Shown piece after piece: positions 3,840-50,322 of a stretch of 64,000 bases of DNA. The position numbers were made by a program, and so were the translations under genes. A model generated the notes under the pieces. The model saw only the letters and a program-made list of their open reading frames with translations. It was not told the origin of the DNA and searched no databases. This DNA comes from Rubritepida flocculans DSM 14296 (GTDB taxonomy: Bacteria; Pseudomonadota; Alphaproteobacteria; Acetobacterales; Acetobacteraceae). The DNA lies in NCBI RefSeq assembly GCF_000425365.1, contig NZ_AUDH01000001.1, positions 124,001 through 188,000 of the forward strand, in the 5' to 3' direction. Positions within the stretch are counted from its first letter, which is position 1. Every line of letters begins with the position of its first letter.

Positions 3840-5303
3840 TCAGGCCGCGCGCAGCCCCGCCACCGTGCCGGCCAGCGCCTCGCGCAGCGCGCCCGCATCG
3901 CCGCGCAGCGCGCCGGCCATGCGCTCGACCTCGCCGGTGGCCTCGGCCGTCTGCTGCGCCTCGTCGAGCGCCCGGCCCACCGAGGCGGCGGCCGCCTCCG
4001 CGCCGCGCGCCACCTGGGCGCTGGCGGCCGCGATCTCGCGCGTGGCCGCGCCCTGCTGGGCCACCGCCGCCGCGATGGTCCCGGCGGCCTGGTTCACCTC
4101 GCCCACCACCGCGGCGATGCCCTCGATGGCCGCCATCGCCTCCTCGGTCGCGGCGCGGATGCCCTGGACCTGCGCGGCGATCTCCTCCGTCGCCTTCGCC
4201 GTCTGGCCCGCGAGATCCTTCACCTCGCTCGCCACCACGGCGAAGCCCTTGCCGGCCTCGCCCGCCCGCGCGGCCTCGATGGTGGCGTTGAGCGCGAGCA
4301 GATTGGTGCGGCCCGCGACATCGCCGATCAGGCGCAGCACCTCGCCGATGCGCGCGGCCCCTTCCGCCAGCCCCTGCACGCTGCGCCGGGTGCCGGCGGC
4401 GCGCTCGGCCGCCGTGCCGGCGATGGCGTTCGCCGTCTCCACCTGGCGGGTGATCTCCGCCACCGCGGCGGCCAGCTCCTCGGAGGCGGCGGCCACCGTC
4501 TGCACCCCGGCCGAGGCCTCCTGCACGGCGAGGCGGGCGGCCTGCGCCCCCTCCAGCGCCCCGGCCGCGCCGGCGGCGATGCGGCGGGAGGCGGCCTCCA
4601 GCGCGTCGGAGGCGCGCTCGACGCCGGCCGCGACGCCGCCGATCTCCTGCTCCACCCGGTCGGCCAGGGCGTGGCGCGCCTCGCGGGCGGCGCGCGCGGC
4701 CTCGGCCTCGGCCGCGGCCCGGGCGGCGGCCGCCTGGGCCTCGGCGGCGCGGGCGCGCTCCGCCTCGGCCAGCGCGGCATCGGCGGCGGCGGCGCCGCGG
4801 CGCAGAAGCCCGATCAGCAGCAGCAGCCCTCCGGCCTCCGCCAGCAGGACGGCCGCATGCAGCGCGACGCGCACCAGGCTGCCCTCCGCCACGCCGAAGA
4901 CGGCCATCGGGGCGGCGAAGTTCAGCACGAGGTGGTGCAGCGCCACGGTGACGGTGGCGACGAGGATGGGCGCCGGGGCGCAGAAGCCCGCCAGCAGCGC
5001 CAGCCCCGCGAAATAGGCCATGTGCATGTCCGGCCGCAGCCAGGCGGGCGCGAACCAGACATGGACGGAGATCGCCGCCATCAGCCCGACCGCGAGGCTC
5101 GCCGCCGCCGCCGGGCCGCCCAGGCCCTGGCGGGCGGCCAGCAGCGCGGCCGCCAGCATGGCCAGCCCGATGCCCCCGCCCAGCATCACCGCGCCCTGCC
5201 CGGTGCCGGAGAGCCAGCCGAGCGGCGGCGCGGCCGCAACCAGGACGGCCAGCAGGATCAGCAGCGCGCGGCCGGTGCGGGCGCGAATGAGGGAGAGATC
5301 CAC
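3840..5303 (-). CDS. Membrane methyl-accepting chemotaxis protein with multi-pass sensor
   Basis: A 487-residue chemoreceptor-type signal transducer. Residues 1 to about 180 hold five or six hydrophobic segments in place of the usual large periplasmic domain. They carry histidine-containing motifs ([30 protein letters not shown]) that may bind metal or haem. An Ala/Glu-rich coiled coil follows, then the MCP signalling domain with the hairpin tip ([20 protein letters not shown], then [20 protein letters not shown]). No HAMP domain is evident. The GTG start follows GAAGGA and lies 13 bp after the small upstream gene; an ATG further upstream would run through that gene. No CheA/CheW gene is nearby. 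The ligand is unknown. Confidence 0.85.
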
Positions 5304-5736: not shown

Positions 5737-6738
5737 ATGCCCCTCTCCCGCCGCACCGCGCTGCGCGCCGCCCTGGGCGCCGCCGCCCTGCCGCCGCTCG
5801 CCGCCCCCGCCTTCTCCCAGGGCTTTCCGAACCGCCCGCTGCGCCTCATCGTGCCCTTCGCCCCCGGCGGGGCGGTGGACATCACCGGCCGGCTGCTGGC
5901 CGAGCGGCTGCAGCCCCTCCTCGGCCAGCCCGTCACCGTCGAGAATCGCGGCGGCGCGGGCGGCAATCTGGGCGGGGATGCGGTGGCCAAAGCCGAGCCC
6001 GACGGCCACACCTTCCTGCTCGGCACCGCCACCATCCTCGCGGCCAACAAGTTCCTCTTCGGCCGCCAGATGCCCTTCGACCCGCTGCGCGACCTCGCGC
6101 CCATCACCCGCGTCTCGACGGGCACGGTGCTCCTGGTGGTGAACGCCGACCGGCCCTGGCGCAGCTTCGCCGATCTGGTGGCGGCGGCGCGCGCCAACCC
6201 GGGGCGGATCACCATGGGCTCCTCCGGCACGGGCACGGTGAGCCACCTCACCCTCGCCTCCATCAACCGCGCCGCGAACATGGAGATCACGCATGTCCCC
6301 TATCGCGGCGGCGGCCCGGCCATCACCGACCTGCTGGCGGGCTCGATCGACATGATGTTCGACGTGATCCCGGCGCTGATGCCGCATGTGCGCTCGGGCC
6401 GCTTCCGCCCGCTCGCCGTGGGCAGCGCCGAGCGCATCACCTTCGTGCCCGAGCTGCGCGAGGTGCCGGGCATGCGCGAGCTGCTGCCCCAGTCGGGCAT
6501 CGACATGCAGTCCTGGTACGCCACCATGGCCCCGGCCCGCACGCCGGAGGCGGCGATCAACCGCCTGCACGCCGCCATCGTGCAGATCGCCCGCTCGGAC
6601 GATTTCCGCGCGCGGCTGGAGCCGCTCGGCTTCGAGCCCGTCACCGACGAGACGCCCGCCGCCTTCGGCGCCTATCTGCGCGCGCAGGAGCGGGTGTGGG
6701 AGGCGCTGGTCCGCGCCTCCGGCGCCACGCTGGAGTAG
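5737..6738 (+). CDS. Bug-family tripartite tricarboxylate transporter receptor (TctC-like)
   Basis: A 333-residue periplasmic binding protein. Residues 1 to about 27 form an export signal with an SRRTAL twin-arginine-like motif and an end near FSQG. The mature part shows the Bug hallmarks: RPLRLIVPFAPGGAVDITGR, VENRGGAGGNLGGDAV, HVPYRGGGPAITDLLAG. Such receptors present small carboxylates to TctA/TctB permeases. None is adjacent, so this is an orphan receptor, as is common in Acetobacteraceae and Burkholderiales. AGGAG lies 8 bases before the ATG. A DUF4170 gene follows after 5 bp. Confidence 0.92.
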   Translation: MPLSRRTALRAALGAAALPPLAAPAFSQGFPNRPLRLIVPFAPGGAVDITGRLLAERLQPLLGQPVTVENRGGAGGNLGGDAVAKAEPDGHTFLLGTATILAANKFLFGRQMPFDPLRDLAPITRVSTGTVLLVVNADRPWRSFADLVAAARANPGRITMGSSGTGTVSHLTLASINRAANMEITHVPYRGGGPAITDLLAGSIDMMFDVIPALMPHVRSGRFRPLAVGSAERITFVPELREVPGMRELLPQSGIDMQSWYATMAPARTPEAAINRLHAAIVQIARSDDFRARLEPLGFEPVTDETPAAFGAYLRAQERVWEALVRASGATLE

Positions 6739-7032: not shown

Positions 7033-7665
7033 ATGCCGCCCGATGCGCCCCTTTCGCCCCGCGCCGCCGCCACGCGCCGGCGCATCCTCGACGCCGCGCT
7101 GGCCGAGTTCGCGGCCAAGGGCCTGGCCGGCGCGCGGGTGGACGAGATCGCCGCCCGGGCGGGCGTGAACAAGCGCATGCTCTACGCGCATTTCGGCGCG
7201 AAGGAGGATCTCTGGCTCGCCGCGCTGGAGGCCGCCTACGCTGCCAAGCGCGCGGAGGAGGAGCGGCTCGACGTCGCGCATCTTCCCCCGCGCGAGGCGA
7301 TGGCGCGGCTCGTCTCCTTCAACCTCCGCTACACCGCCGCCCATCCCGAGTTCGTGGCGCTGCTGAACGAGGAGAACCTGCACCGCGCCGCGCATCTGCG
7401 CCGCAGCCGCGACGTGCCGGCGCTCTACTCGCCGCTGACCGAGACGCTGCGCGCGGTGCTGGCCCGCGGCGCGGCGGAGGGGCTGTTCCGCACCGATGCG
7501 GACCCGCTGCAGCTCTACCTCTCCATCGTCGCGCTCGGCCATTTCACGGTGGCGAACCGCCACACCCTCTCCGCCCTGTTCGGCGAGGATCTGGGCAGCG
7601 AGGCGGCGCTCGCCGCGCGCGAGGCGCATGCGGTGGCCATGGTGCTGGGCTATCTGCGGCCCTGA
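7033..7665 (+). CDS. TetR/AcrR family transcriptional regulator (RutR-like)
   Basis: A 210-residue one-domain repressor type. The N-terminal helix-turn-helix (about residues 14-58) reads RRRILDAALAEFAAKG, then VDEIAARAGVNKRMLYAHFG, typical of TetR. The ligand domain includes FVALLNEENLHRAAHLRRS, a signature of the RutR-like subgroup. It lies directly upstream, on the same strand, of a catabolic operon whose leader holds a perfect 9+9-bp palindrome, the probable operator. The effector is unknown; a metabolite of the neighbouring pathway is a reasonable guess. Confidence 0.9.
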   Translation: MPPDAPLSPRAAATRRRILDAALAEFAAKGLAGARVDEIAARAGVNKRMLYAHFGAKEDLWLAALEAAYAAKRAEEERLDVAHLPPREAMARLVSFNLRYTAAHPEFVALLNEENLHRAAHLRRSRDVPALYSPLTETLRAVLARGAAEGLFRTDADPLQLYLSIVALGHFTVANRHTLSALFGEDLGSEAALAAREAHAVAMVLGYLRP

Positions 7666-7670
7666 CGGGC

Positions 7671-7715
7671 TTGACTCCGCCCCGGGGCCGCGCGAAGTAA
7701 CCAGACGGTTACTTC
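7671..7715 (+). promoter_or_regulatory. Putative TetR operator palindrome overlapping a promoter
   Basis: Perfect inverted repeat at 7694-7715: arms GAAGTAACC and GGTTACTTC separated by AGAC, resembling TetR-family operators. A -35-like TTGACT lies at 7671-7676, with a 17-base spacer to GAAGTA at 7694, so the palindrome would cover the -10 region. The ribosome site CAGGAGGGA and the ATG of the Gfo/Idh/MocA gene follow within 15 bases. Repression of the downstream operon by the adjacent regulator is inferred. Confidence 0.7.
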
Positions 7716-7729
7716 AGGAGGGAACGGCC

Positions 7730-8884
7730 ATGGCCGAACGCCGCATCGGCATCATCATGAACGGCGTCACCGGGCGCATGGGCATGAACCAGCACCTGAT
7801 CCGCTCCATCGCGGCGATCCGCGCCGAGGGCGGCGTCCGGCTCGCCGACGGCGATGTGCTGATGCCCGACCCCGTGCTGACCGGCCGCAACCGCGGCAAG
7901 CTCGAAGCCCTCGCCCGCGCGCACGGCATCGCCCGCGTCAGCACCGACCTCGACGCCTGCCTCGCCGACCCGAAGGACGAGATCTTCTTCGACGCCGCGA
8001 CCACGCAGCTCCGCGCCGGCCTGATCCGCAAGGCCATCGCGGCGGGCAAGCACGTCTATTGCGAGAAGCCCACCGCCGACACGCTGGAGGACGCGCTGGA
8101 GCTGGCGCGCCTCGCCAGGCAGGCCGGCATCAAGCACGGCGTGGTGCAGGACAAGCTCTTCCTGCCCGGGCTTCGCAAGCTGAAGATGGTGATCGACAGC
8201 GGCTTCCTGGGCCGCATCCTCTCGGTGCGCGGCGAGTTCGGCTACTGGGTCTTCGAGGGCGACCTGCAGCCCGCCCAGCGCCCCTCCTGGAACTACAAGC
8301 TGGCCGAGGGCGGGGGCATCATCCTCGACATGCTCTGCCACTGGCGCTACGTGCTCGACAACCTCTTCGGCGAGGTCGAGAGCGTCTCCTGCCTCGGCGC
8401 CACGCACATCCCGCGCCGCGTGCAGGAGGATGGGACCTTCTACGACGCCGACGCGGACGACGCGGCCTACGCCACCTTCCAGCTCGCGGGCGGCGTGATT
8501 GCGCAGATCAACTCCTCCTGGTGCACCCGCGTGCGGCGCGACGACCTCGTGACCTTCCACGTGGACGGCACGCATGGCAGCGCGGTGGCGGGGCTGACGG
8601 AGTGCTGGACCCAGGCGCGGGTGAACACGCCCAAGCCCGTCTGGAACCCCGACGTGCCGCAGACCATCAACTTCTTCGAGGGCTGGCAGAAGGTGCCCGA
8701 CACCCAGGCCTACCCCAACGGCTTCCGCGCGCAGTGGGAAATCTTCCTGCGCCATGTGGCCGGCGAGGTGGCGGAATATCCCTGGAACCTGCTGGCCGGC
8801 GCGAAGGGCGTGCAGCTCGCCATGGCCGGGCTGCAGTCCTGGCGCGAGCGCCGCTGGGTGGACCTGCCGAAGCTGGAGGCCTGA
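7730..8884 (+). CDS. Gfo/Idh/MocA family oxidoreductase
   Basis: A 384-residue NAD(P)-dependent dehydrogenase. The N-terminal Rossmann fold has GIIMNGVTGRMGMN (residues 8-20). The family's EKP motif is at residues 112-114 (HVYCEKPTADTLED). The C-terminal sheet domain begins with GGGIILDMLCHWRYVLD (about 194-210), including the conserved aspartate and His204. Family members oxidise sugars, inositols or glycosides, often at C3. The substrate here is unknown. First gene of an operon with DUF993 (2-bp gap) and a TIM-barrel isomerase, under a likely TetR operator. CAGGAGGGA precedes the start. Confidence 0.93.
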   Translation: MAERRIGIIMNGVTGRMGMNQHLIRSIAAIRAEGGVRLADGDVLMPDPVLTGRNRGKLEALARAHGIARVSTDLDACLADPKDEIFFDAATTQLRAGLIRKAIAAGKHVYCEKPTADTLEDALELARLARQAGIKHGVVQDKLFLPGLRKLKMVIDSGFLGRILSVRGEFGYWVFEGDLQPAQRPSWNYKLAEGGGIILDMLCHWRYVLDNLFGEVESVSCLGATHIPRRVQEDGTFYDADADDAAYATFQLAGGVIAQINSSWCTRVRRDDLVTFHVDGTHGSAVAGLTECWTQARVNTPKPVWNPDVPQTINFFEGWQKVPDTQAYPNGFRAQWEIFLRHVAGEVAEYPWNLLAGAKGVQLAMAGLQSWRERRWVDLPKLEA

Positions 8885-8886
8885 GC

Positions 8887-10044
8887 ATGCCGAGCATCCG
8901 CCTGCCCACCCCCGATGGGCTGCAGGATTTCGCGCTCTCCGCCCCGCGCGACTTCCCGCGCGCCACGCCGCCCTTCCCGCGCGTGGCGCTGGCCGCCGCG
9001 CATGTGGTGGCCGACCCGCTGGCCGAGCAGGATCCCTGGCTGGAGGCGAAGCTCGACTGGGACCGGACCATCGCCTTCCGCAAGCATCTCTGGTCGCTGG
9101 GGCTGGGCGTCGCCGAGGCGATGGACACGGCGCAGCGCGGCATGGGCCTCGACTGGGCGGCGGCGCAGCAGCTCATCCGCCTGAGCCTGGATGCGGCGAA
9201 GGACGTGCCGGGCGCGGTGCTGGCGAGCGGCGCGGGCACCGACCACCTGGCCCCCGGCCCGGATGTGACGGTGGAGGACGTGATCCGCGCCTATGAGGAG
9301 CAATGCGCCGCCGTGGAGGGCATGGGCGGGCGCATCATCCTCATGGCCTCGCGCGCGCTGGCGAAGGCCGCGCGCGGCCCGGACGACTATGTGCGGGTCT
9401 ATGACCGCATCCTCTCCCAGGTGAAGGAGCCGGTGATCATCCACTGGCTGGGCGAGATGTTCGACCCCGCCCTCGCGGGCTACTGGGGCCACGCCGACCA
9501 CATGCAGGCGATGGAGGTGGCGCTCGAGGTCATCGCCGCCCATGCCGACAAGGTGGACGGCGTGAAGATCTCCCTGCTCGACGACAGGAAGGAGATCGCC
9601 ATGCGCCGCCGCCTTCCCAAGGGCGTGCGCATGTACACCGGCGACGACTTCAACTACGCCGAGCTGATCGCGGGCGACGAGCACGGCCATTCGGACGCGC
9701 TGCTCGGCATCTTCGACCCCATCGCGCCGGCGGTGGGCGGGGCGCTGGCCGCGCTCTCGCGCAACGATCTCTCGAGCTTCCACGACATCCTGGCGCCGAC
9801 GGTGCCGCTCTCGCGCCACATCTTCAAGGCGCCCACGCGCTTCTACAAGACGGGCGTGGTGTTCATGGCCTGGCTCAACGGCCACCAGGACCATTTCGTG
9901 ATGGTGGGCGGGCAGCAGAGCACGCGCTCCATCCAGCACTTCGCCGAGCTCTTCCGCCTGGCCGACCGCGCCGGGCTGCTGCGCGACCCCGAGCTCGCCG
10001 TGGCGCGGATGCGCCAGCTCCTCGCGCTGCACGGCGTGGCGTGA
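8887..10044 (+). CDS. DUF993 family protein, DHDPS-like TIM barrel
   Basis: A 385-residue cytoplasmic protein of the DUF993 family, which annotation pipelines often place with dihydrodipicolinate-synthase-like TIM barrels. Segments supporting this include LASGAGTDHLAPGPDVTVEDV, GGRIILMASRALAKAA, VKEPVIIHWLGEMFDPALAGY and ADKVDGVKISLLDD. The lysine in the last one is placed like the Schiff-base lysine of class I aldolases; that comparison is mine. It starts 2 bp after the dehydrogenase gene, so the two are surely co-transcribed. An aldolase or lyase step on an oxidised sugar is plausible. The reaction is not established to my knowledge. Confidence 0.85.
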   Translation: MPSIRLPTPDGLQDFALSAPRDFPRATPPFPRVALAAAHVVADPLAEQDPWLEAKLDWDRTIAFRKHLWSLGLGVAEAMDTAQRGMGLDWAAAQQLIRLSLDAAKDVPGAVLASGAGTDHLAPGPDVTVEDVIRAYEEQCAAVEGMGGRIILMASRALAKAARGPDDYVRVYDRILSQVKEPVIIHWLGEMFDPALAGYWGHADHMQAMEVALEVIAAHADKVDGVKISLLDDRKEIAMRRRLPKGVRMYTGDDFNYAELIAGDEHGHSDALLGIFDPIAPAVGGALAALSRNDLSSFHDILAPTVPLSRHIFKAPTRFYKTGVVFMAWLNGHQDHFVMVGGQQSTRSIQHFAELFRLADRAGLLRDPELAVARMRQLLALHGVA

Positions 10045-10093
10045 TGCGCGCGATCGTGGAGCGCCGCAGCCGCGGCGCGGCGAGGAGCGGAAC

Positions 10094-10924
10094 GTGAATC
10101 GCCCGCAGGACAACCCCATCCCCCTCTCGCTCAACACCGTCACGGTGAAGGAGCGCTGGGGCCTCGCGGACTGCATCGAGGGCTGCGCGCGGCACGGCAT
10201 CCCGGGCATCTCGCCCTGGCGGGACGTGCTGCACGCCATGGGCGTGGAGGCCGCCGCGCGCCATGTCCGCGATGCCGGCCTCACGGTGACCGGGCTCTGC
10301 CGCGGCGGCATGTTCCCCGCGGCCGACGCTGCCGGCCGCCGCGCGGCCATCGAGGACAACCGGCGCGCCATCGCGGAGGCCGCGGCGCTGGGCGCGGCCT
10401 GCCTCGTCATGGTCTGCGGCGGGCTGCCGCCTGGCTCGAAGGATCTTCCGGGCGCGCGCGCCATGGTGCGCGAGGGGCTGGAGGCCATCCTGCCCGAGGC
10501 GCGGGCCGCCGGCGTCACCCTCGCGCTCGAACCGCTCCACCCGATGACCTGCGCGGACCGCTCCGTGCTCTCCACCCTCGCCCAGGCGCTCGACCTCTGC
10601 GAGGCGCTCGGCGAGGGGGTGGGCGTGGCGGTGGATGTCTATCACGTCTGGTGGGATCCCGCGCTGGAGGGGCAGATGCGCCGCGCGGCCGGCCGCATCG
10701 CCGCCTTCCACGCCTGCGACTGGCTGGTGCCGACCACCGATCTCGTCTTCGACCGCGGCATGCCGGGCGATGGCGTGATCGACATCGCGGCCATCCGCCG
10801 CATGGCCGAGGCGGCAGGCTACCGGGGCTTCACCGAGGTGGAGCTGCTCTCCCGCCGCTGGTGGGCCGAGGATCCGGACCATGTGCTGCGCGTGATCAAG
10901 GAGCGCCACGCCGCCATGGCTTGA
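10094..10924 (+). CDS. Sugar phosphate isomerase/epimerase family TIM barrel
   Basis: A 276-residue AP-endonuclease-2-type TIM barrel (xylose-isomerase-like). The metal-ligand pattern can be traced: Glu146 (LALEPLHP), Asp181 (VAVDVYHVWW), His206 (AFHACDW) and Glu248/250 (FTEVELLS). Enzymes of this fold epimerise, isomerise or cleave keto-sugars. A GTG start is used, preceded by GAGGAGCGG. It is third in the TetR-linked operon, 49 bp after the DUF993 gene. The substrate is unknown but presumably comes from the dehydrogenase/DUF993 steps. Confidence 0.88.
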   Translation: MNRPQDNPIPLSLNTVTVKERWGLADCIEGCARHGIPGISPWRDVLHAMGVEAAARHVRDAGLTVTGLCRGGMFPAADAAGRRAAIEDNRRAIAEAAALGAACLVMVCGGLPPGSKDLPGARAMVREGLEAILPEARAAGVTLALEPLHPMTCADRSVLSTLAQALDLCEALGEGVGVAVDVYHVWWDPALEGQMRRAAGRIAAFHACDWLVPTTDLVFDRGMPGDGVIDIAAIRRMAEAAGYRGFTEVELLSRRWWAEDPDHVLRVIKERHAAMA

Positions 10925-10974
10925 GTCGGGCCGCGCGGCGGGCAGAATGGAGGGCAGACATGGAGGAACCGCCA

Positions 10975-11961
10975 ATGCCCTTCTCCCGCCGGCGTGCGCT
11001 CGCGCTGCCCGCCCTCGCCCTGGCGCCCCTGGCCTTGCCCTTCGCCGCGCGGGCGCAGGGCTGGGCCCCCACGCGGCCCATCCGCTTCGTGGTGCCCTTC
11101 GCGCCCGGCGGCGCGACGGACATCGTGGCCCGGGTGCTCTCCGAACCCATGGCCGAGCGGCTGGGCCAGCCCGTGCCAGTGGAGAACCGCACGGGCGCCG
11201 GCGGCAATGTCGGCGTGGAGAATGTGGTGCGCAGCGCGCCCGACGGCCACACCCTGCTGATGGGCACCACCGGCACGCTGACCATCAACCCGCACCTCTA
11301 CAGCAACATGAGCTTCAACCCGCTGACCGACCTCGCGCCGGTCGGGCTGGCGTTCGGCACGGACCATGTGCTGATCGTCCATCCCAGCGTGCCGGCGCAG
11401 ACGGCGCAGGAGTTCCTGGCGCTGGCGCGGGCGCAGCCGGGGCGGCTCTCCTACGGCTCGGGCGGCAACGGCACCTCGACGCACACGGTGGCCGAGCTGT
11501 TCAAGCTCGTGGCGCGGGTGGACATCCAGCACGTGCCCTATCGCGGCTCCGCCCCCGCGCTGAACGACACGGTGGCGGGCAATGTGCAGGCGATGCTCGA
11601 CCAGATCGCGAGCGCCCTGCCGATGATCCAGGCCGGGCGCGTGCGCGCGCTGGCGGTGACGGGGGCGCGCCGCCACCCCGCCCTGCCCAATGTGCCCACG
11701 GTCGGCGAGATCGGGCTGGCCGCGGCCGAGGCCTCCTCCTGGGGCGCGGTGATGGCCCCGGCCGGCACCCCCGCCCCGGTGATCGAGCGCGTCAACGCCG
11801 TGCTGCGCGAGGCGCTGGCCCTGCAGGCGGTGAAGGACCGTCTGGCGCAGGTGGGTGCGGAGGCGGTGACCTCCACGCCGCAGGAGCTCGCCGCCTATCT
11901 GCGGGCCGAGACGGAGAAATGGGGCCGCGTGGTGCGCGAGGCGCGCATCACCCTGAACTGA
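10975..11961 (+). CDS. Bug-family tripartite tricarboxylate transporter receptor
   Basis: A 328-residue periplasmic receptor with an SRRRALALPALALAP-type export signal ending near ARAQG. Mature hallmarks are RPIRFVVPFAPGGATDIVAR, VENRTGAGGNVGVENV, HVPYRGSAPALNDTVAG and LPNVPTVGEIG. It lies 50 bp after the isomerase on the same strand and may deliver the substrate of that pathway, although no TctA/TctB genes are present. An ATG 15 bases upstream is also in frame, but GGAGGA sits between the two, favouring this start. The 3' end overlaps the convergent enolase-superfamily gene by 14 bp. Confidence 0.92.
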   Translation: MPFSRRRALALPALALAPLALPFAARAQGWAPTRPIRFVVPFAPGGATDIVARVLSEPMAERLGQPVPVENRTGAGGNVGVENVVRSAPDGHTLLMGTTGTLTINPHLYSNMSFNPLTDLAPVGLAFGTDHVLIVHPSVPAQTAQEFLALARAQPGRLSYGSGGNGTSTHTVAELFKLVARVDIQHVPYRGSAPALNDTVAGNVQAMLDQIASALPMIQAGRVRALAVTGARRHPALPNVPTVGEIGLAAAEASSWGAVMAPAGTPAPVIERVNAVLREALALQAVKDRLAQVGAEAVTSTPQELAAYLRAETEKWGRVVREARITLN

Positions 11962-13375
11962 GCGGCCAGGCGGCCTTGGCCATCGGCCGCATCGCCGCCA
12001 CCTCGGGCAGCACCGCGCTGCCGAAGCCCGGCGCGGCGAGGCTCGCGATCTCGAGCATCCCCTCGCGGATGGCGAGGCGCGGGCCGCGCGGCGTGTCCGC
12101 GTAGAGGTCCGGGTGCGCTTCGAGGAAGCGCACCGCATCCGCCTTCGGCTGGCCCGCGAAGCCCGCGATGAAGTGGTGGCCGTTGCGCTCCACATGCGGC
12201 AGGCCGAGCGCACTGACCAGCGCCAGATCCTGCTGCACGCAGAGCCCCGCGAGCGTCGTGAGATCCTCCGCCGAGAGGAAGTGGCGCGGCGCGGGCAGGG
12301 CGGCGTTCCAGGCCCGGCAGCGCGCGAGGTTGATGAGCGAGCGCCAGAACCCCTTGCAGGCCTTGGTCGAGACGCCCGCATAGCCGAGGCCGCGGGCCGT
12401 GACGAAGGCGTCGAGCGGCCCGTCGCTTTCGTCGATGATGACGGGGCGCTCCGCCGCCAGCGCGCCGATGCCCGCCTCCAGCGCGCGGGCGCGCTTCACC
12501 GGCTGCTCGATGAAGGCCACCGAGGCGCAGAGCCGCGCGAGGCGCGGCTCCTCCCGCATCGCGCGCCAGAGGGCCAGCGCGCCCTCCGCGTCCTCGTACT
12601 GCTCGTTGCCGTCGAGCGTCACGTGATAGCCGTGCAGCCTGTCGAGCACCGAGGCGATGCGGCAGAGCCGGTCCACATCGGCGCGGATGTTCCCGCCCAC
12701 CTTCAGCTTCCACCAGGCGTGGCGGTAGGTCGCGGCCACCTCCTCCAGCGTCTCGGGCAGCCCGTCCGCCACCCGTTCCGCGAGGTCGTCCGCCGTGATC
12801 GGGTCGAGCAGCCCGACCGTGTGGCGCGCGTGAATCCGCGCCGGCGCGGGCGTGGCCGCGAGCATGGCGCGCGCGTCGAAGCCCGCGAGCTCGGGCGCGA
12901 GGCGCGCGGGGGCGAAGCCGCCGAGATCGGCGCGCAGCCCCTCGTGGAAGGCGAGGCCCGCGCAGCGCAGCAGCGCGTCGAAGCCCGCGCGGTCCACCAG
13001 CGCGCGGCCGAAGCTCGCCGCCAGCGGGTCGAGCCCCTCCGCGCCGCAGGCCGCGACATGCGCGGGATAGGCGGCGGCGAAATGGCCGAAGGCGGTGTCG
13101 GCAGGCGCGGCGAGCGCCTGGGCCATCGCGATCTCGACGGTGCGGCGGAGCTGGTGCTGGTTGTCGGCGTCGCTCAGCGCCGGGTTCTTGTCGAACCATT
13201 TGGCGGCCAGCGTCTCGGCGGCCATGCCCTCCGCCTCGCGCCCGTCCTCGGTGCGGATGCGCGCGCGCAGCACGCACTGGACGCCGTCGCGCACCGTGAT
13301 CACGCCGAAGCGGAAGGGCAGGCGCAGGGTGAAGTCCCACTCAAAGGCGTCGAGGGCGAGGAAGCGGAACTTCAT
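11948..13375 (-). CDS. Enolase-superfamily enzyme (mandelate racemase/muconate lactonizing group)
   Basis: A 475-residue protein, longer than the usual 350-400. Enolase-superfamily landmarks in the C-terminal barrel are KLKVGG (Lys223 and Lys225, a KxK motif), metal ligands Asp255 (LDGNEQY), Glu290 (FIEQP) and Asp315 (IIDESDG), and a lysine pair in STKACKG (338/341). This resembles the muconate-lactonizing subgroup more than acid-sugar dehydratases with a His-Asp dyad. The family removes a proton next to a carboxylate. The substrate is unknown. The ATG overlaps the stop of the second TIM-barrel isomerase (ATGA), so the two form a pair facing the TetR-linked operon. Confidence 0.85.
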   Translation of the reverse strand: MKFRFLALDAFEWDFTLRLPFRFGVITVRDGVQCVLRARIRTEDGREAEGMAAETLAAKWFDKNPALSDADNQHQLRRTVEIAMAQALAAPADTAFGHFAAAYPAHVAACGAEGLDPLAASFGRALVDRAGFDALLRCAGLAFHEGLRADLGGFAPARLAPELAGFDARAMLAATPAPARIHARHTVGLLDPITADDLAERVADGLPETLEEVAATYRHAWWKLKVGGNIRADVDRLCRIASVLDRLHGYHVTLDGNEQYEDAEGALALWRAMREEPRLARLCASVAFIEQPVKRARALEAGIGALAAERPVIIDESDGPLDAFVTARGLGYAGVSTKACKGFWRSLINLARCRAWNAALPAPRHFLSAEDLTTLAGLCVQQDLALVSALGLPHVERNGHHFIAGFAGQPKADAVRFLEAHPDLYADTPRGPRLAIREGMLEIASLAAPGFGSAVLPEVAAMRPMAKAAWPLSSG

Positions 13376-50134: not shown

Positions 50135-50322
50135 TACGGTCGGCATGACATGCCGACCGTATGGCGCGCAGGGTTGGCGGGCACCCATCGAAGCTTTGCT
50201 TCGATGGGACCCGGTGTGGCGGCTGCGCGCCAAAACAAAGGCATACCAGCGGCTGCACCGGCCCCTCAGGAGTCGAAATCAGCGGCCGCTGGTATGATAC
50301 GGGAGGGGCCGCCGCCCGCATC
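50134..50322. repeat. Composite dispersed palindromic element, copy R-2, with hairpin insertion
   Basis: Fills the gap between two convergent glycosyltransferase genes. Hairpin I has perfect 13-bp arms ATACGGTCGGCAT and ATGCCGACCGTAT (50134-50162). Hairpin II has arms GGCGCGCAG (50163-50171) and CTGCGCGCC (50223-50231). Nested inside it is a 37-base insertion (50178-50214) with 11-bp arms CCCATCGAAGC and GCTTCGATGGG around TTT. Hairpin III has arms CATACCAGCGGCTGC (50242-50256) and GCGGCCGCTGGTATG (50282-50296). A degenerate P palindrome GATACGGG...CCCGCATC follows (50296-50322). Apart from the insertion it matches the reverse complement of 1717-1843 closely. Confidence 0.88.

Follow-up and report, generated by a model that had tools for sequence, protein, structure and literature searches.

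DUF993 in a putative TetR-controlled gene cluster of Rubritepida flocculans: a candidate regulon for acidic-carbohydrate catabolism

The genome of Rubritepida flocculans DSM 14296 carries, within a window of 64,000 nucleotides (contig NZ_AUDH01000001.1 of NCBI RefSeq assembly GCF_000425365.1, positions 124,001 to 188,000 of the forward strand; coordinates below count from the first letter of this window), a gene cluster arranged around a protein of the DUF993 family (PF06187/IPR009334), comprising a TetR-family regulator, a Gfo/Idh/MocA oxidoreductase (Gfo), two xylose-isomerase-like barrels (Iso1 and Iso2), a Bug/TctC receptor and an enolase-superfamily enzyme. We read this cluster, with a probability of roughly 55%, as a TetR-controlled catabolic regulon for an acidic carbohydrate, either a sugar acid itself or a glycoside that releases one. 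The gene linkage, a common inverted-repeat site, the folds of the enzymes and their conserved residues are established by computation; DUF993 itself is built like an enzyme that cuts carbon-carbon bonds, displaying a dihydrodipicolinate synthase (DHDPS) fold with an altered active site.

Conservation of the gene neighborhood

An earlier note on this DNA, made from the sequence alone, had described five genes on one strand, from TetR to the Bug receptor, and their positions and Pfam families are borne out on the forward strand; the convergent half of the cluster, comprising the enolase-like gene and Iso2, had been overlooked. Two bases lie between Gfo and DUF993, the Bug and enolase-like genes overlap by 14 bases at their convergent 3' ends, and the enolase-like gene and Iso2, both on the reverse strand, overlap by 4 bases.

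The neighborhood survey relies on genes called with a simple codon-usage script and labelled by profiles built from recurring neighbors; CUT permease and TctB labels derive from profiles only, and the ABC-ATPase profile catches ABC ATPases generally. The 80 nearest loci are the best 80 of at least 585 relatives, chosen by similarity; the class and phylum samples give the less biased picture. Locus counts include redundant loci, many loci end at contig ends, one locus (L254) belongs to both the class and the phylum sample, and one genome whose DUF993 is in two pieces (G464) is not included. Counting the window's own genome, 25 of 289 class and 36 of 398 phylum genomes encode DUF993; so do 10 of 18 further genomes from the genus. 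DUF993 has both Gfo and Iso1 as direct neighbors in 58/80 of the nearest, 10/10 of the genus, 13/25 of the class and 17/34 of the phylum loci, and at least one of them in 77/80, 10/10, 22/25 and 18/34, respectively. The gene order is far above chance.

Many of the remaining loci display a second type of context, including LacI regulators, sugar-type ABC importers, GMC and SDR oxidoreductases, CoA-transferase, enoyl-CoA hydratase, aldehyde dehydrogenase, acyl-CoA dehydrogenase and an annotated glycerate kinase. Some loci match neither type, and when 99 DUF993 proteins are placed on a tree, those sharing a context label cluster without forming single clades.

A second DHDPS-family protein (PF00701, E 2.7e-8; hhalign against DHDPS, E 8e-16) is encoded in 8 of the 80 nearest and 10 of the 25 class-sample loci. 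Five loci (L257, L268, L263, L267 and L305) combine a PhyH-type dioxygenase with this protein, which displays its own conserved lysine, hinting at an extra oxidative entry step. Downstream of the cassette, L030, L042 and L058 share genes for a class I fructose-bisphosphate aldolase and a SAICAR-synthetase-like protein, their Pfam identity having been checked on the L030 copies. L058 comes from a metagenome bin whose label, Klebsiella pneumoniae, is probably wrong; its DUF993 groups with those of two bins of proteobacteria, including a betaproteobacterial one.

A putative operator shared among the loci

An inverted repeat separates the TetR stop (7665) from the Gfo start (7730). Taken at first for a perfect 22-bp palindrome, it comprises 9-bp arms flanking a 4-base center that does not pair. 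Its length was rejected as evidence by itself, given that the window contains 41 overlapping 9-bp inverted repeats with gaps of 0-10, and that, with up to two mismatches allowed, 21 of 100 shuffles contain the pattern. The core pattern GTAACN6GTTAC has a single occurrence in the 3.83-Mb genome, as has the reversed pattern, and stands above chance because it is unique in the genome at this very place and is kept in relatives.

Across 160 loci, the window included (2.73 Mb), 69 sites display the spacing of six, against 5 for all other spacings from 0 to 14 together. All 69 lie outside called genes, an overlap with a gene end of up to 10 bases being tolerated (one site overlaps the end of TctA by 4), and 55 of the 160 loci carry the exact site. 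The nearest facing gene start is most often that of Gfo (29 sites), TetR (8) or the second DHDPS-family gene (7), followed by PhyH (6), TctC (5), Iso2 (4), acyl-CoA dehydrogenase (4), ABC ATPase (2) and, at one site each, Gfo40, a CUT receptor and Gfo22, whereas one site faces no gene start within 450 bases. More generally, a conserved inverted repeat with spacings of 4-10 is found within 400 bp of the TetR gene in 46 of 96 TetR-bearing loci.

The search was extended to 33 picked DUF993 genomes, comprising 21 of 24 class-sample, 9 of 10 genus and 3 of 33 other phylum-sample genomes; 26 of them contain the site. Since the reversed pattern gives 22 occurrences in these genomes against 35 sites, the count is a weak sign, whereas the place is a strong one: for 30 of the 35 sites DUF993 is no farther away than about 11 kb, and three more share a contig with other cluster genes. 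The remaining two (in G279 and G194) are unexplained, with none of the profiled pathway genes near that in G279. The TetR family, present in 54 of the 80 nearest loci and in 8 of 10 genus relatives, would bind the repeat, which we regard as a putative operator. The same site occurs in four acyl-CoA-dehydrogenase/DUF993 operons on Sinorhizobium and Paracoccus plasmids (L110, L111, L115 and L116), linking the two context types. Its presence ahead of these CoA-type operons, which contain acyl-CoA dehydrogenase and SDR genes with CoA-transferase and glycerate kinase nearby, suggests two versions of a pathway under one kind of regulator.

Table 1. Features of the DUF993 cluster, in window coordinates
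Feature	Position	Strand	Basis
TetR-family regulator (TetR_N + TetR_C_29), putative repressor	7033-7665	+	Pfam
Putative operator GAAGTAACC-AGAC-GGTTACTTC	7694-7715	unstranded	conserved core GTAACYNNNNRGTTAC at 7697-7712
Gfo/Idh/MocA oxidoreductase, 384 residues	7730-8884	+	Pfam PF01408, PF22725, PF02894
DUF993 protein, 385 residues, DHDPS-fold barrel, putative Schiff-base lysine K227	8887-10044	+	PF06187, E 6.8e-186
Iso1, xylose-isomerase-like TIM barrel, 276 residues	10094-10924	+	PF01261
Bug/TctC solute receptor	10975-11961	+	PF03401
Enolase-superfamily enzyme, 475 residues, convergent	11948-13375	-	profile and model; without Pfam match
Iso2, second xylose-isomerase-like barrel, 281 residues	13372-14217	-	PF01261
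Second Bug/TctC receptor, upstream of TetR; place in the unit uncertain	5737-6738	+	Pfam

DUF993, a barrel with a candidate Schiff-base lysine

DUF993 covers the complete PF06187 profile (1-382 of 382) with 618 bits against a cut-off of 24, and gives no Pfam match to PF00701, the DHDPS/N-acetylneuraminate lyase (NAL) family. As the earlier note had anticipated, the protein comprises a TIM barrel of the class I aldolase superfamily, namely a (β/α)8 barrel followed by a C-terminal helical part, as in DHDPS and NAL. Lys227, located in strand 223-229 and at least 97% identical among 160 DUF993 sequences, matches, in a weak profile alignment, the lysine with which DHDPS forms its Schiff base where strand 6 ends. 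The GTTGE motif that accommodates the 2-keto-acid carboxylate is replaced by DTAQRG, with only Thr81 retained, and an invariant His186 occupies, in the profile alignment, the position of Tyr133 of E. coli DapA, which we take to be the proton-shuttle tyrosine. The description of DUF993 as aldolase- or lyase-like is partly borne out: the barrel and the aligned lysine fit it, the motif and the catalytic tyrosine do not. A lyase or dehydratase activity through a Schiff base is putative. The remark in the earlier note that no reaction is assigned to the family agrees with the open-licence main texts searched, in which no function for DUF993, PF06187 or IPR009334 was found.

A distant member, 46% identical, is encoded on a Streptomyces yangpuensis plasmid (L114, 9998-11188), flanked by a mycofactocin-coupled SDR and a monooxygenase and located beside a type I polyketide synthase, a context from which the family may also take part in natural-product synthesis.

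Partner enzymes and importers

Gfo displays Rossmann and C-terminal domains above the Pfam cut-offs, with the lysine of its EKP motif (K113) and the D-x3-H pair D200/H204, to which we attribute catalytic roles, at least 97% conserved in 120 sequences. Its best PDB match is 3oqb (585 bits), deposited simply as 'Oxidoreductase'; it falls below the NCBIfam cut-offs for levoglucosan dehydrogenase (69 versus 650 bits) and inositol 2-dehydrogenase (71 versus 355), and weakly matches 4,5-dihydroxyphthalate dehydrogenase and PmdC. By eye, the N-terminus reads GVTGRMG, closer to the dihydrodipicolinate reductase fingerprint than to the usual GxGxxG.

Iso1 and Iso2 both adopt the PF01261 fold. In Iso1, residues E146, D181, H206, E248 and E250, presumably metal ligands, are at least 97% conserved in 129 sequences; its PDB matches bear the depositor names 'sugar isomerase' (3qc0), 'uncharacterized protein SMc04130' (3ju2) and 'Xylose isomerase' (7vpf), and it is weakly nearest to IolO and hydroxypyruvate isomerase. 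The nearest solved relatives of Iso2, which is also near IolO, are ketose 3-epimerases. Neither protein reaches a named epimerase or isomerase equivalog in NCBIfam, the best scores being 32 and 55 bits against 300 for IolO. Iso2 is encoded in 18 of the 80 nearest, 4 of 10 genus and 6 of 25 class-sample loci; in those four genus relatives it is paired with the enolase-like gene, an arrangement that other loci also show.

In Pfam, searched to E 10, the protein encoded at 11948-13375 hits only DUF5813, below cut-off (E 0.29), and NCBIfam yields nothing at E up to 0.01. In annotated plasmid records, relatives beside the same Gfo and DUF993 genes are named 'enolase' or 'enolase C-terminal domain-like'. 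Built from 37 relatives, a profile of this family aligns with proteins of the mandelate-racemase/muconate-lactonizing type (hhalign, E 7.2e-10, probability 96.5), a placement supported by the far worse matches of true enolases (E 0.33) and DHDPS (E 0.12). The AlphaFold2 model (pLDDT 93.2) displays the capping domain and barrel of the enolase superfamily; Foldseek returns the muconate-lactonizing/racemase group at a best E of 3e-14 with a TM-score by target of 0.65, the scores spanning 0.62-0.75 among the 50 matches listed. Residues K223/K225 (KxK), D255, E290, D315/E316 and K338, which we take for catalytic residues and metal ligands, are invariant in sets of 37 and 35 sequences. Nine of the ten genus relatives have the gene, likewise convergent; in the tenth, the locus is cut off by a contig end. 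The protein represents an enolase-superfamily branch without a match in the Pfam and NCBIfam copies used.

The Bug gene had been proposed to serve import, and it does follow Iso1 in 10/10 genus relatives; conservation within the genus is nevertheless uninformative, because the 3.83-Mb genome yields 92 matches to the TctC family, fragments among them, and only 4 TctA permeases, and the receptor was set aside as a weak indicator of substrate. A Bug gene upstream of TetR is also seen in loci L002 and L211, and different importer types sometimes occur within one cluster.

Two further observations concern other parts of the window: a protein encoded at 3840-5303 on the reverse strand contains, by eye, a stretch typical of methyl-accepting chemotaxis proteins, and two neighboring inverted repeats (50135-50161 and 50184-50208) form a possible terminator or regulatory site.

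Proposed pathway and alternative explanations

The earlier note had proposed a dedicated sugar or glycoside pathway with three enzymes; linkage, shared site and folds partly uphold it. TetR binding, the class of substrate, the sequence of the steps and all of the reactions are inferred. In the proposed scheme, the substrate would enter through an importer, here perhaps Bug and elsewhere Tct, SsuA/NMT1-type ABC or sugar-type ABC systems. Gfo would use NAD(P) to oxidize a secondary hydroxyl, giving a ketone, and Iso1, together with Iso2 where present, could shift the carbonyl via an enediolate or catalyze elimination or hydration next to it. The enolase-superfamily enzyme would abstract the proton α to a carboxylate, dehydrating or epimerizing the acid; enzymes of this superfamily need a carboxylate, which points to a sugar acid as the substrate. 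Lys227 of DUF993 might then form a Schiff base with the ketone and promote a retro-aldol C-C split, with His186 possibly standing in for the proton-shuttle tyrosine where the 2-keto-acid motif is missing. The products would reach central metabolism, the glycerate kinase of related clusters suggesting a C3 fragment.

A new carbohydrate-acid pathway of Alpha- and Betaproteobacteria, in which DUF993 acts as a Schiff-base C-C lyase on keto-sugars rather than on pyruvate-type acids, its keto-acid motif and catalytic tyrosine exchanged for a Thr/His set, and in which a Pfam-less enolase branch takes part, is a tentative proposal to which we give slightly less than even odds. A pathway of this make-up was not found in the literature searched, the regulon and the enolase branch having been searched indirectly.

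Several observations weigh against the regulon as proposed. The exact site is missing from 105 of 160 loci and from 7 of the 33 picked genomes, and the window's enolase/Iso2 unit lacks a GTAACN6GTTAC site of its own, while Iso2 or Gfo40 units in L013, L014, L015, L018 and L258 have one. DUF993 is not tied to one gene set, since 16 of 34 phylum-sample loci lack both Gfo and Iso1 beside it. Importers vary by lineage, including Tct, SsuA/NMT1-type ABC and SBP_bac_1/8 sugar-type ABC systems, and an NCBIfam scan of 8 window proteins brought none (0/8) to any equivalog cut-off. At the level of sequence, DUF993 shows a weak relation to DHDPS (E 0.0015 and 0.0007, probability 17-26%), though a better one than to the control barrels (muconate-lactonizing enzyme, E 0.069; Iso1, 0.41; Iso2, 0.23), so that the claim of kinship rests on the fold; DUF993 does not match the second DHDPS-family protein of the clusters (E 0.22). 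Finally, with GTTGE and Tyr133 lost, its chemistry may differ from aldol cleavage.

This last point leads to the most credible alternative, still unlikely in our estimate, in which the pathway is the same and DUF993, instead of splitting a C-C bond, would dehydrate or hydrolyze a keto-sugar acid through a Schiff base. The DHDPS superfamily includes keto-deoxy-sugar-acid dehydratases, DUF993 lacks the standard aldolase tyrosine and motif, and the second, genuine DHDPS-family protein could be the aldolase; that protein is, however, missing from 72 of the 80 nearest and 15 of the 25 class-sample loci, other lyase families not having been systematically sought. Somewhat less probable is the opening of a glycoside or anhydrosugar by oxidation, elimination, hydration and reduction, as for levoglucosan: Gfo would form a 3-keto sugar, Iso1 eliminate, Iso2 hydrate and a second Gfo reduce, with DUF993 and the enolase working on the released part. 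Gfo, Iso1 and Iso2 are at hand here, and a second Gfo (Gfo40 or Gfo22) in some loci, but Iso2 is confined to the minority of loci given above, Gfo40 or Gfo22 are rarer still, Gfo scores far below the levoglucosan dehydrogenase cut-off, and the scheme offers no clear role for DUF993 or the enolase, both more constant.

Catabolism of a small cyclic or aromatic acid, in which Gfo would dehydrogenate a cis-diol or hemiacetal, the enolase would act as a muconate-type cycloisomerase and import would be of the Tct/SsuA type, appears improbable: the enolase model is closest to the muconate/racemase group, Gfo weakly matches the two aromatic-acid dehydrogenases named above, and SsuA/NMT1 and Tct importers, as well as PhyH dioxygenase in some loci, would suit it, whereas sugar-type receptors in the same clusters, the kinship of Iso2 with ketose 3-epimerases and IolO and of Iso1, weakly, with IolO and hydroxypyruvate isomerase, and the LacI regulators and annotated glycerate kinase of related DUF993 contexts argue for carbohydrates. 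A chance mosaic of neighbors without joint function, which the abundance of Bug-family matches in the genome and of 9-bp inverted repeats in the window might evoke, is hardly credible given an order kept in 10/10 genus relatives and across classes, with a common site.

The analysis provides DUF993, a family with a solved structure, with a fold class, a likely catalytic lysine, partners and a putative operator. Operator and lysine make the question of which keto-sugar DUF993 binds a testable one, the operator offers a direct induction assay for the substrate, and the gene set adds an enolase-superfamily branch overlooked by the Pfam and NCBIfam copies used.

Comparison with known systems

The solved DUF993 member, 4dnh, is SMc04132 from Sinorhizobium meliloti, 67-69% identical to the window protein over nearly the full length, and SMc04130 (3ju2) from the same organism is a relative of Iso1; SMc04133 is listed as a putative oxidoreductase. 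SMc04132, SMc04133 and SMc04135 are tabulated in a PhaR study, the available part of which states no function for them. The records consulted for SMc04132 and SMc04130 state no function; in the window, DUF993 is seen as part of a putative TetR regulon with a convergent enolase-superfamily gene.

Two systems serve as precedents, neither identical to the DUF993 regulon. As described in the portion consulted, the levoglucosan cluster comprises a dehydrogenase, two annotated sugar phosphate isomerases and a Gfo-family reductase (PMC7676230). LgdA, LgdB1, LgdB2 and LgdC thus resemble the window in clustering a dehydrogenase, two isomerase-type proteins and a Gfo-family reductase, but the four enzymes, as presented there, include neither DUF993 nor an enolase-superfamily member, and the window Gfo lies far under the equivalog cut-off; the pathway was kept as an analogy, not as an identity. 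In deoxyribonate breakdown, according to the sections seen, a sugar acid is oxidized to a keto acid and cleaved, finishing at glycerate kinase (PMC6365646), a logic resembling the second type of DUF993 context. Neither 'DUF' nor 'dihydrodipicolinate' occurs in the main text of that paper, and this pathway too was retained as an analogy.

Compared to the DHDPS/NAL superfamily (PF00701), DUF993 is longer, at 385 residues, and displays DTAQRG for GTTGE and His186 for Tyr133. The enolase-like protein shares with the muconate-lactonizing and mandelate-racemase groups the fold and the KxK, DxN, E, DE and K residues, with 475 residues against mostly about 360-375 in the solved relatives among the matches listed. 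The families themselves are established ones, and their neighbors come from known superfamilies.

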